Source: Ktedonospora formicarum (GTDB taxonomy: Bacteria; Chloroflexota; Ktedonobacteria; Ktedonobacterales; Ktedonobacteraceae). Taken from it: a stretch of DNA of 64,000 bases. How positions within the stretch are numbered: the first letter of the stretch is position 1; each line of letters starts with the position of its first letter. Under the pieces are notes generated by a model. The model made no database searches. It worked only from the letters and a program-made list of their open reading frames with translations, and was not told the origin of the DNA. The DNA is taken from the NCBI RefSeq assembly GCF_016587355.1, contig NZ_BNJF01000002.1, forward strand, positions 744,001 through 808,000. Direction: 5' to 3'. Shown here piece by piece: positions 57,016-60,442 of the stretch. A program made the translations under genes and the position numbers.

Positions 57016-57900
57016 ATGATCGACAAGCATAGCCTGAGCCGTGAGATTGAGGGCTATCGCCTACTGAGTCTACTAGGACACGGTAATGGCTCCGAGATCT
57101 ACCTAGCCGAATATGCAAGCAGCCACTCTCCAGTAGCGGTAAAGATCCTGCCTGGGCACCGGGCAGGGGATAACCTTACTCGTTTCTTCATCCATGCTAC
57201 TCGCCTCAAACGCCTGGAGCATCCCTATATTGTGCGCGTTCGTGCGTTCGGTACACAGGATGACTTCACTTATCTTGTGATGGACTACCTTCCCAACGGA
57301 AACCTACGTGAGCGCCATCCCAAGGGGCAAGTGGTTGAATCCTCGACTGTTGTCCGATACGTCAGGCAAGTTGCCGATGCTATTACCTATCTTCATGAAC
57401 AGCAACTTATTCATCGCGATATCAAGCCTCATAACATGCTTATCAACGCTCAAGGCAATGTTCTCTTAAGCGATTTTGGAATCTCCGTTGTCTCACACAG
57501 TCTCGATCCTCTTGCACCTCAACAGCATGACTTCGAGGGCACAGTCATTTATGCGGCACCGGAGCAGTTGTTAGGCACACCACGACGTGCGAGCGATCAG
57601 TATTCTCTCGCGGTTACAATCTATGAATGGCTGAGCGGAACATGGCCTTTTAGCGGCACATTTGATGAACTGGTTGAACAACATCTTCACCATATGCCGC
57701 CACCTCTGCGAACAAGAAATTCCGCGCTCTCGCCCCTTATTGAACAGGTCGTCATGAAGGCACTTGCCAAGAGTCCTGAGAAACGCTTCCCCAGCATGCA
57801 TGATTTCGCTCAAGCGTTCACCTGGGCGGTTGAACAAAGTACTCCGGACAGGCAGACACCACGCCCCACACGCCAATTCCGGACCCCGTTCTCCTTCTAA
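57016..57900 (+). CDS. Hanks-type serine/threonine protein kinase
   Basis: 294 residues from ATG 57016; in-frame TTG 57001 and GTG 57007 are possible and no start has a strong ribosome-binding site. Complete kinase domain: glycine loop LGHGNGSEIY, Lys in VAVKILPG, catalytic loop IHRDIKPHN, DFG, APEQ and SDQYSLAVTIYEWLSGTWPF. No membrane helix or sensor domain, so it is cytosolic. Its stop overlaps that of the convergent DUF4132-like gene by three to four bases, with no terminator between. Confidence 0.93.
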   Translation: MIDKHSLSREIEGYRLLSLLGHGNGSEIYLAEYASSHSPVAVKILPGHRAGDNLTRFFIHATRLKRLEHPYIVRVRAFGTQDDFTYLVMDYLPNGNLRERHPKGQVVESSTVVRYVRQVADAITYLHEQQLIHRDIKPHNMLINAQGNVLLSDFGISVVSHSLDPLAPQQHDFEGTVIYAAPEQLLGTPRRASDQYSLAVTIYEWLSGTWPFSGTFDELVEQHLHHMPPPLRTRNSALSPLIEQVVMKALAKSPEKRFPSMHDFAQAFTWAVEQSTPDRQTPRPTRQFRTPFSF

Positions 57901-59861
57901 ATATGGCTTCTAATCTGTCGCAAGATTGATTCGTCCTTAATACGATCATCTTCCAGGAGTAGGAGTATCTTACTCACAATCTCGCTAAGCCGGGTGTCCT
58001 CTTTATCAGCAAAGGGAAGAAAGAGTTGAGGATGGCTCCCACCCCAGTTCTGTGGGACAATGCACAGATAGTGCCCTGGCTCTATATGGATCGCGCCACT
58101 ATTGAGGTGAACACGATAACGAGCGAGCTTTCCTTGTACATACGCGAAATGTCCATCCAGCGTGACACCTGCCAGACTCAGGTCATCCAATAACGCTTGT
58201 AGCAATTCACGGCGCCGCTCGTAGACTTCGCTTGAGCAAAAGAGCATTTGCTGATCCTCTATCTGCGCTACAGATACGACGAGATCAATATTGCGCATAG
58301 CTTCCGAGAAGACAAGTGGAGGCACCTCTCCGAGTGGTATGTATTTTTTTGACTCTTCCCACATACGCTCATATGAGCGCACTGTGGACCGAAAATAGAT
58401 ATTTCCCACCAACATAGGCTGACCAACAATAAAGCCTTCATAGTAACTGGCTTGTGATAATTCAACGCACGCCTGGATGGTGCCAAAAGTCTTGAAACAA
58501 ACATCATATTCTTGCAGCCGCCATTGACGAGAACCAAGAAGGCTTCCAGCGATATTCCCACGCACCCAGTGTCCAGCAAAGCGCCTGGAGAATGCAACCG
58601 CCTCTCGTTCAGCAGGGGTCAGAATATACAGCTCACGAAATACTTGTTTGACGGGCTGCACAATCTTCCGGCAAATGATCTCACGTTGCCACGCGGTCAG
58701 AACGCCAGCCTGAAAAAGTGAGTAGGAGTGCGCCACTCTTACTGGTTGCGTAATAGGATGCAAGGAGCCATCAAGGTCTTGTAGCACGAAGCGCTCACCA
58801 TCGAAAAGCCCAAACATATTCTCACCACTCACCATCACAAGACGCTCTAATAATTTTCGCGCAAGAGGAAGCCTCACAAGGTTCTGTAATTCGCCAACGG
58901 TGAGTATCTTCTCGCTCGCAACCAACATCTCTAGCAGGTTAGTGCGCAGGCGCTTCAACTGGTCACGCAAAAGCTGTACAGCCTCCTTCGCCTCCTGATA
59001 TACCGCACTAGCACGAACCTCTTTTGGTACTGATTTGAGTAAGCGCCCATCACGCTCAATATCAAGTGAGATGTCGATGCCATCTAACCGCAATGTAATA
59101 CTATACGCACTAACCTGCCAACGCCTCCCTTCGGGAGAGCGATCCCGAGCTACGCGCGCCTCCATCTCCCATTCCATTAATGTCGTGTCAGCATAATCCG
59201 CTAGCCTGGCAAGATTCCTCATACCTTCATAGGCAGCTTGCTTATGGGTGACTCGCCGTTGCGGGCCAAATTTGTGTGCCATACCTTCGATTTCTCGCAG
59301 GCGCAGGTACCGTTCTAGCACTTCCTCATCGCCTCGTTCCAGTGGCAGTAGACCTAGACATGCTATCGCGACCTGGCTATGATGTTTGATCCCCTTTGCC
59401 ACGCGCTCTCGATTCCAGCCCGCAATGGCGCTCACTTGATAACAAATCTCTTTGTGGATGCCAGCCTCCACAAAGAGGCTCAGCATCATACGCGCTGATT
59501 CCTTTGGCACTCTCGCCAGTAATGCTCTCACCTCCTCAATATCCACCACCCCGAACATACTACTCTCATCCAGCATCTGCCCGACTGACTGCAAACAATT
59601 TGTATGAGATTCAATATAATTGAGGAGTGGTTGCGCCTCATGCCAGCCAAGCGCATCGGCTATGAGTCTGTGGGCATGTGGTGTCAGGGGAAACAGCACT
59701 TTGAGCGTTTCCCCTGGAAACTGACTTAGTTCCTGCACACTTCTCTCGTACTGAATTGGGTTGGTTGGCTCCAGGTCATCTCTCGACAATTGTTCCCAGA
59801 TGATTGTGGCATTTATAGCATCTATCTGATGGTGTGCGGCCTGCAACTCGCTTATGGACAT
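57897..59861 (-). CDS. DUF4132/DUF7737-like protein
   Basis: 654 residues from ATG 59861 (MSISELQAAHHQ); a TTG at 59915 would add 18. Mostly helical N-terminal half. The C-terminal part, RRFAGHWVRGNIAGSLLGSRQWR, VGNIYFRSTVRSYERMWEESKKYIPLGEVPPLVFSEAMRNIDLVVSVAQIED and LFLPFADKEDTRLSEIVSKILLLLEDDRIKD, matches the conserved end of DUF4132/DUF5724 (MolR-related) proteins. These are usually longer (about 1000 residues or more), so this is a short version. Biochemical role unknown. It is downstream of, and probably co-transcribed with, the beta-grasp protein. Confidence 0.82.
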   Translation of the reverse strand: MSISELQAAHHQIDAINATIIWEQLSRDDLEPTNPIQYERSVQELSQFPGETLKVLFPLTPHAHRLIADALGWHEAQPLLNYIESHTNCLQSVGQMLDESSMFGVVDIEEVRALLARVPKESARMMLSLFVEAGIHKEICYQVSAIAGWNRERVAKGIKHHSQVAIACLGLLPLERGDEEVLERYLRLREIEGMAHKFGPQRRVTHKQAAYEGMRNLARLADYADTTLMEWEMEARVARDRSPEGRRWQVSAYSITLRLDGIDISLDIERDGRLLKSVPKEVRASAVYQEAKEAVQLLRDQLKRLRTNLLEMLVASEKILTVGELQNLVRLPLARKLLERLVMVSGENMFGLFDGERFVLQDLDGSLHPITQPVRVAHSYSLFQAGVLTAWQREIICRKIVQPVKQVFRELYILTPAEREAVAFSRRFAGHWVRGNIAGSLLGSRQWRLQEYDVCFKTFGTIQACVELSQASYYEGFIVGQPMLVGNIYFRSTVRSYERMWEESKKYIPLGEVPPLVFSEAMRNIDLVVSVAQIEDQQMLFCSSEVYERRRELLQALLDDLSLAGVTLDGHFAYVQGKLARYRVHLNSGAIHIEPGHYLCIVPQNWGGSHPQLFLPFADKEDTRLSEIVSKILLLLEDDRIKDESILRQIRSHI

Positions 59862-59995
59862 AGGATTCTCAGTCAAGAGTTGCGCCGCCCGTCGCAAACA
59901 ATTGAAACCACACAAGGTCTCACTCTACCCTTACTTAAATATCCTTCCAATAAAATATATCTGACATTCTGGCAAACTACTTCTTCCAGTAAGCA

Positions 59996-60442
59996 TTAGC
60001 CTCCAACAAGAGGAGTCAGACGTAAGAAGGTTACCTTGCTTCCAGGCTGAAACGTCAGCTTTTCGTCCAGTTTATTCATTCGCTGCCCATCCACAATCAG
60101 CAGATACGAGCGCCGTATGAATGCCTCCTGTGCTGTCTTCACCGCCACCTCTATGTTCACCTGCTCTTCACGTTCCGCCCGATCAGATGGCATATGTATT
60201 GCTCCCTGCTGAGTCTGCTCGCGAACATTTTCCTCACTCAAGTAATATCTATTAAGCATACGTTTAGCAGCCTGAGCCTGAAGCTTGCGTTCAGCAAGCA
60301 CACGTACTTGCTCTTTTACCGTGCGCTCGATTAATTCACTTACCGCTAACACTTCACTCCCTATCTGCACATGCACCACTGGCATGCTTGCATCAGCGTA
60401 CACACCAGGCATCAAACGTGTACTCACCTCAACCGTCGTCAT
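59996..60442 (-). CDS. Ubiquitin-like (beta-grasp) protein candidate with C-terminal Gly-Gly
   Basis: 148 residues. The N-terminal strand MPVVHVQIGSEVLAVSELIERTV looks like beta1-beta2-alpha1 of a MoaD/ThiS/ubiquitin fold. A charged helical insertion (about 55-100) follows. The end, SYLLIVDGQRMNKLDEKLTF then QPGSKVTFLRLTPLVGG, resembles the last strands and Gly-Gly tail of sulfur carriers and ubiquitin-like modifiers. No E1, E2 or JAB gene lies in the window. It is 135 bp upstream of the DUF4132-like gene (80 bp if that gene starts at TTG 59915), in the same direction. The fold assignment is inference from pattern. Confidence 0.6.
   Translation of the reverse strand: MTTVEVSTRLMPGVYADASMPVVHVQIGSEVLAVSELIERTVKEQVRVLAERKLQAQAAKRMLNRYYLSEENVREQTQQGAIHMPSDRAEREEQVNIEVAVKTAQEAFIRRSYLLIVDGQRMNKLDEKLTFQPGSKVTFLRLTPLVGG

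Follow-up and report, generated by a model that had tools for sequence, protein, structure and literature searches.

A gene for a small protein ending in Gly-Gly lies beside a DUF4132-type gene in the 64,000-nucleotide stretch of Ktedonospora formicarum DNA analysed here (the window), raising the question of whether the two encode a ubiquitin-like (UBL) modification module. A preliminary description had read the small protein as ubiquitin/ThiS-like with a charged helical insertion, and had suggested a conjugation-like or signalling role for the pair. The relevant features are as follows.

59996..60442, minus strand: gene for the small, predicted UBL/MoaD-like protein, 148 aa (open reading frame, AF2, Foldseek, and an alignment of 48 relatives)
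59999..60004, minus strand: Gly147-Gly148 codons, GGAGGC, abutting the TAA stop; invariant family-wide
60155..60301, minus strand: codons 48-96, charged helical insertion (AF2 model and alignment)
57897..59915, minus strand: DUF4132-DUF7737 partner, up to 672 aa (open reading frame and Pfam)
58521..59048, minus strand: DUF4132 domain of the partner, residues 290-465 (PF13569, E = 8.3e-32)
57912..58220, minus strand: DUF7737 domain of the partner, residues 566-668 (PF24879, E = 4.9e-32)
58062..58064, minus strand: Cys618 in the motif HYLCIVP of DUF7737, kept with a Gly-Gly-ending small protein

The 148-codon frame starts at ATG and ends in the residues ...VTFLRLTPLVGG (tail LTPLVGG), with the TAA stop following without a gap. 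In a 48-member alignment drawn from several phyla, Phe139, Leu145, Gly147, and Gly148 are invariant. A chance or mis-called reading frame is ruled out by this conservation in relatives, and the Gly-Gly end, described beforehand as lying at the C-terminus, sits directly at the stop as LVGG and is conserved in all 48 aligned orthologues. The insertion separates the first helix from the C-terminal half, and varies in both length and sequence within the same alignment.

The AF2 model of the small protein, built from a 38-row alignment, has a pLDDT of 80 and a pTM of 0.69. Its N-terminal half comprises strands at residues 2-10 and 23-27 and a long helix at 34-67, and its C-terminal half comprises a helix at 97-109 and strands at 113-117, 120-122, 128-130, and 136-141, with a free tail at the end. 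The pLDDT is low at residues 61-90. As first described, the charged insertion (residues ~48-96) is helical, at lower confidence in the model. A Foldseek search against the PDB returned human MOCS2A/MoaD as the top match (probability 0.94, E = 0.06), followed by mycobacterial MoaD, ubiquitin, SUMO, SAMP1, NEDD8, and ThiS, interspersed with unrelated proteins. Each match alone is weak and none is significant; because the top group is consistent, we assign the small protein, as a prediction from the model, to the beta-grasp fold class, in agreement with the ubiquitin/ThiS-like character originally suggested. Neither of the two outcomes named beforehand as refuting that reading occurred: the model has a beta-grasp core, and orthologues keep the Gly-Gly end. 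In an hhalign comparison with ThiS/MoaD, the C-terminal strands and the Gly-Gly fell in register with a non-significant score of 19.7 (P = 0.01), the controls (one reversed and ten column-permuted) scoring at most 14.4. The protein is covered by no family in Pfam and NCBIfam searches. It has no match to PF02597 (ThiS/MoaD) that reaches the cut-off, and the best PF02597 score among the 48 relatives is E = 0.0067; a plain ThiS/MoaD identity was rejected on these profiles.

In the 10.67-Mb host genome (G000), the small gene occurs exactly three times, as does DUF4132, and each small gene is paired with an adjacent DUF4132 gene. Both paralogous small proteins end in FKLVPLVGG, and the second paralogue has near-identical relatives in Ktedonobacter records. 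A scan of one-genome-per-species contigs identified 43 small-gene loci in Cyanobacteria, Planctomycetota, Acidobacteriota, Armatimonadota, Actinomycetota, and Chloroflexota, and every complete small protein among them terminates in L[VI]GG. Plasmid and megaplasmid records provided further members in Deinococcus, Novosphingobium, and Nonomuraea and a divergent one in Bacteroides, so that the family range also takes in Deinococcota, Alphaproteobacteria, and Bacteroidota. With few exceptions, the Gly-Gly is followed immediately by the stop codon. At two Chloroflexota loci (L122:4380-4835 and L123:1353-1859), one or two residues come after the Gly-Gly (LAGGA, LAGGSA), and the partners' Cys is kept; both small genes overlap the start of the partner.

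Weak relatives of the small protein that end in FMRLYQR, without Gly-Gly, adjoin recF at L118:5618-6058 and L126:5887-6438, in Chloroflexota genomes without DUF4132. Neither the small protein nor the partner matches any PADLOC model of anti-phage defence, and a known defence system was ruled out on these zero matches. A phage or viral origin was likewise rejected: phage records have no match to either protein, and profile searches of viral contigs yielded no confirmed relative, the single Bacteroides-seeded match covering only 20 residues.

The neighbouring gene had been placed in the DUF4132/DUF7737 family, and the Pfam matches (E = 8e-32 and 5e-32) bear this out, with scores of 111 bits for PF13569 and 110 bits for PF24879 against a cut-off of 27. 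To our knowledge, neither domain has an assigned function. The start of the partner is uncertain (TTG at 59915 or ATG at 59861). The protein is shorter than most homologues, yet both domains and the Cys are present; because the frame starts later, its N-terminus may be truncated in comparison with those of L066 and L122. An ATG overlapping the stop of the small gene (TAATG) opens a frame of ~21 codons at window positions 59931-59996. In the tree, the window partner clusters with DUF5724-type proteins. The AF2 model of a Ktedonobacter homologue (L026, 827 aa; pLDDT 82, pTM 0.63) is helical up to ~residue 355 and mixed alpha/beta beyond. Foldseek with this model gave generic armadillo/HEAT-like matches to the helices only, and profile searches found no convincing PDB relative for DUF4132 or DUF7737. 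Since the partner shows no recognisable enzyme fold, it is conservation only that points to a possible catalytic role for the Cys.

The small gene and the DUF7737-bearing DUF4132 gene co-occur almost strictly. At 35 scanned loci, the partner frame starts between -23 and +126 bases relative to the stop of the small gene; at L054, L059, and L071, the partner is upstream instead. Within 28 genomes picked for having the small gene, ~31 of 36 small-gene matches lie next to DUF4132, as either an entire gene or a fragment, four are truncated at a contig end, and one (L036, genome G054) is unlinked. Because of this selection, the unbiased test of pairing is a Chloroflexota set of 251 genomes drawn evenly, regardless of the small gene. 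DUF4132 was found in eight of the 251, with the small gene adjacent in seven; in the eighth (G013), the domain lies at a contig end and its upstream side is missing. One further genome (G272) carries a degenerate small gene (LVGD) and no DUF4132. In a survey of DUF4132 neighbourhoods, which the preliminary description had proposed, almost all DUF4132 genes that carry DUF7737 had the small gene next to them. DUF4132 copies without the small gene include those of the YehI type, which sit with MoxR, DUF5682, VWA, and SWIM genes, those of the WGR type, those of Acetobacter and Burkholderia, and L129. The distance matrices of the small protein and the partner correlate at r = 0.89 over 48 pairs (maximum of 2000 permutations, 0.33), a value that includes a contribution of shared species history.

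At L066:4086-7631, an in-frame 1181-aa UBL-DUF4132 frame has the junction ...ATAGGGGATAAG (...LIGDKLMNESE). A natural fusion was rejected; because the junction fits a one-base change in the G run at LIGG-stop, L066 is taken as a frameshift and not as evidence for a dispensable Gly-Gly. At L053:6370-11550, two tandem DUF4132-DUF7737 genes follow one small gene, and the Cys is present in both.

The Gly-Gly tail and the DUF7737 Cys are retained and lost together. The Cys (Cys771 in L026 numbering) is found in all 48 aligned partners of Gly-Gly proteins, which represent ~36 lineages at 70% identity. The usual motif is YLCIVP, and the Cys is kept in the very diverged forms GALCIIPVH, GFLCVIPIH, and GSVCIVPVH. 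The co-loss rests on two independent losses of Gly-Gly: L069, a Ktedonobacteria paralogue that is the third copy in G026, has the tail ...LAPLASQPICLWIKLTD and Pro at the Cys site of the partner, and L139 (Bacteroides finegoldii) has the tail ...LAMLSGRLW and Ala at that site. No nearby frame restoring the Gly-Gly was seen in the L069 DNA. Among 46 near-invariant core positions, the Cys and one Leu are the only ones at which both partners deviate; L069 alone is altered at several further near-invariant positions, mostly C-terminal, as a diverged paralogue. The two lie in separate, distant clades of the tree. This pattern was spotted in the data and not predicted in advance. Among DUF4132 proteins with no small gene, the YehI and WGR types have no DUF7737, and those of Acetobacter and Burkholderia retain a DUF7737-like end whose Cys site is occupied by Phe and Ala. 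The Cys is still present beside the damaged small genes of L066 (frameshift) and L075 (stop), and also in L129, L132, and L143, which have no small gene next to them although their genomes encode it elsewhere.

The lack of a nearby E1, noted in the preliminary description, extends to the whole of the window's contig, on which ThiF/E1 and ThiS genes were not found; the matches in the host genome (five ThiF and three ThiS) are all on other contigs. The host operon has no E1-like gene of the kind found in E1/E2/JAB systems, a scan of the window neighbours at 54-64 kb gave no E2 or JAB match, and in the loci read, genes for adenylation, E2, JAB, or sulfur transfer were not seen alongside the pair. 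A ThiF-type E1 is encoded in 32 of 32 module-bearing genomes, which makes a check for genomes lacking an E1, as a possible refutation, uninformative.

Deinococcus radiodurans DR_A0165 is a member of the small-protein family (profile E = 1.4e-18; 134 aa, tail LTALAGG). It ends two bases before DR_A0166, a 1626-aa DUF5724-DUF4132-DUF7737 protein carrying the Cys. The pair was matched to the published tags DRA0165 and DRA0166 by position, with trxC upstream and DUF4132 downstream. The DRA0165-DRA0166 operon is strongly upregulated on DdrO depletion and has been placed under DdrO, and mitomycin C raises DRA0166 in an IrrE-dependent manner (PMC8533742). DRA0165 (SEP068184) is induced by radiation and H2O2, and its deletion leads to higher H2O2 survival, which identified it as a negative regulator of H2O2 resistance (PMC9650054). 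The same study reported the binding of Trx1 by DRA0165 and a pull-down set of 157 proteins, and found no RDRM motif at DRA0165, in conflict with PMC8533742. Published in 2022, it independently predicted a MoaD-like protein with matches to 5MPO, 3PO0, and 6JBZ, and termed it Deinococcus-specific, ubiquitin and glycine being unmentioned (PMC9650054). By analogy, stress in the form of DNA damage or oxidation is probably the setting of the module, a role that beyond Deinococcus is extrapolated from one organism. New with respect to the published Deinococcus work are the connection between Gly-Gly, DUF4132, and Cys and the range beyond Deinococcus.

We propose that the two genes constitute one module, comprising a Gly-Gly beta-grasp protein and a dedicated large partner with a helical-repeat N-terminus (as modeled for the full-length homologue), a DUF4132 core, and DUF7737. 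The tail would be activated in trans by a housekeeping ThiF/MoeB-type E1, and the terminal glycine would be handed to the DUF7737 Cys as a thioester. The partner could then move the modifier onto targets or, in reverse, cleave it off, in which case DUF4132-DUF7737 would be an E2/E3-like or isopeptidase-like enzyme with an unrecognised fold. Judging from the sequence patterns, it is quite possible, if short of probable, that the module works by such thioester or transfer chemistry between tail and Cys. More tentatively, the module may represent a phylum-spanning UBL modification, with DUF4132-DUF7737 as a new class of Cys-dependent UBL transferase that shares a housekeeping E1 and has a role in DNA damage and oxidative stress. 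The conjugation-like or signalling module of the preliminary description is strengthened by the co-retention and co-loss of Gly-Gly and Cys, and we keep it as a proposal. No report of conjugates of the small protein came up, and searches of open-access literature for DUF4132, DUF5724, and DUF7737 turned up no description of the pair.

The tail might instead dock non-covalently in a Cys-lined pocket of the partner, analogous to the MoaD tail in MoaE, and thereby regulate or stabilise it. The strict pairing, the joint evolution, and the short or overlapping gene junctions suit such a subunit, as do the extra residues on some tails. However, docking needs less than two invariant terminal glycines and the specific loss of a Cys, and the 157-protein Deinococcus pull-down is at odds with a dedicated subunit, although co-IP background may contribute to it; we consider this explanation somewhat doubtful. 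A sulfur carrier, whose tail would become a thiocarboxylate like that of ThiS/MoaD while the DUF7737 Cys donated or accepted a persulfide in a dedicated thiolation, appears unlikely: the loci read showed no recurrent neighbour that stood out as a rhodanese, a cysteine desulfurase, or a biosynthetic enzyme, and the large helical partner is unlike a small-molecule enzyme. Consistent with it are the closest fold match being MoaD, the hhalign placement of the C-terminal strands and Gly-Gly on ThiS/MoaD (above controls, non-significant), the E1 in every genome checked, and the thioredoxin bound by the Deinococcus protein (PMC9650054). Finally, DUF7737 could be a protease whose Cys trims or releases the small protein with no transfer. 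The conserved Cys has a conserved His (His755) nearby, and tails with one or two extra residues occur, but trimming would be unnecessary in nearly all members and the His persists in the pairs that have lost Gly-Gly and Cys, making this role highly improbable.

Beyond the preliminary description, the present analysis adds the two paralogous pairs in the genome, the conserved Cys of the partner, and the published Deinococcus stress member. The pairing supplies DUF4132/DUF7737 with a partner and singles out two residues for mutation, the terminal Gly and one Cys. An unexplained published Deinococcus stress gene is now tied to a family spanning many phyla. If the proposed tail-Cys chemistry is true, a further class would be added to the UBL enzymes, with the E1 absent from the operon.

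Among known systems, the E. coli YehI/MolR-type proteins have DUF4132 in common with the window partner, and differ in having no small Gly-Gly protein, DUF7737, or Cys. The Proteobacteria loci L138, L142, and L144 combine YehI-type DUF4132 with DUF5682, VWA, and SWIM, and two of them also have a MoxR-type ATPase; with the small gene absent, this set is a different system. Bacterial Ub-like conjugation operons, among which Bil is counted, offer a second comparison. The Ub-like tail chemistry of these operons (PMC1779556; CBASS Cap2, PMC10097602) is the principle proposed here, whereas the window operon is without an E1, no E2 or JAB was seen beside it, and the fold of the partner is unrecognised. 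The terms MolR and WGR are absent from PMC1779556. ThiS/MoaD (PF02597), SAMP1, and Urm1 combine a beta-grasp fold with a C-terminal Gly-Gly, as predicted for the window protein, which is about twice their length and has no Pfam match over the cut-off; unlike ThiS/MoaD, it has a DUF4132-DUF7737 partner and no E1, ThiG, or MoaE partner. In comparison with the window pair, DR_A0165 has a shorter helical insertion and DR_A0166 an extra DUF5724 region, and the two pairs agree in family, Gly-Gly tail, adjacency, DUF7737 Cys, and MoaD-like prediction.
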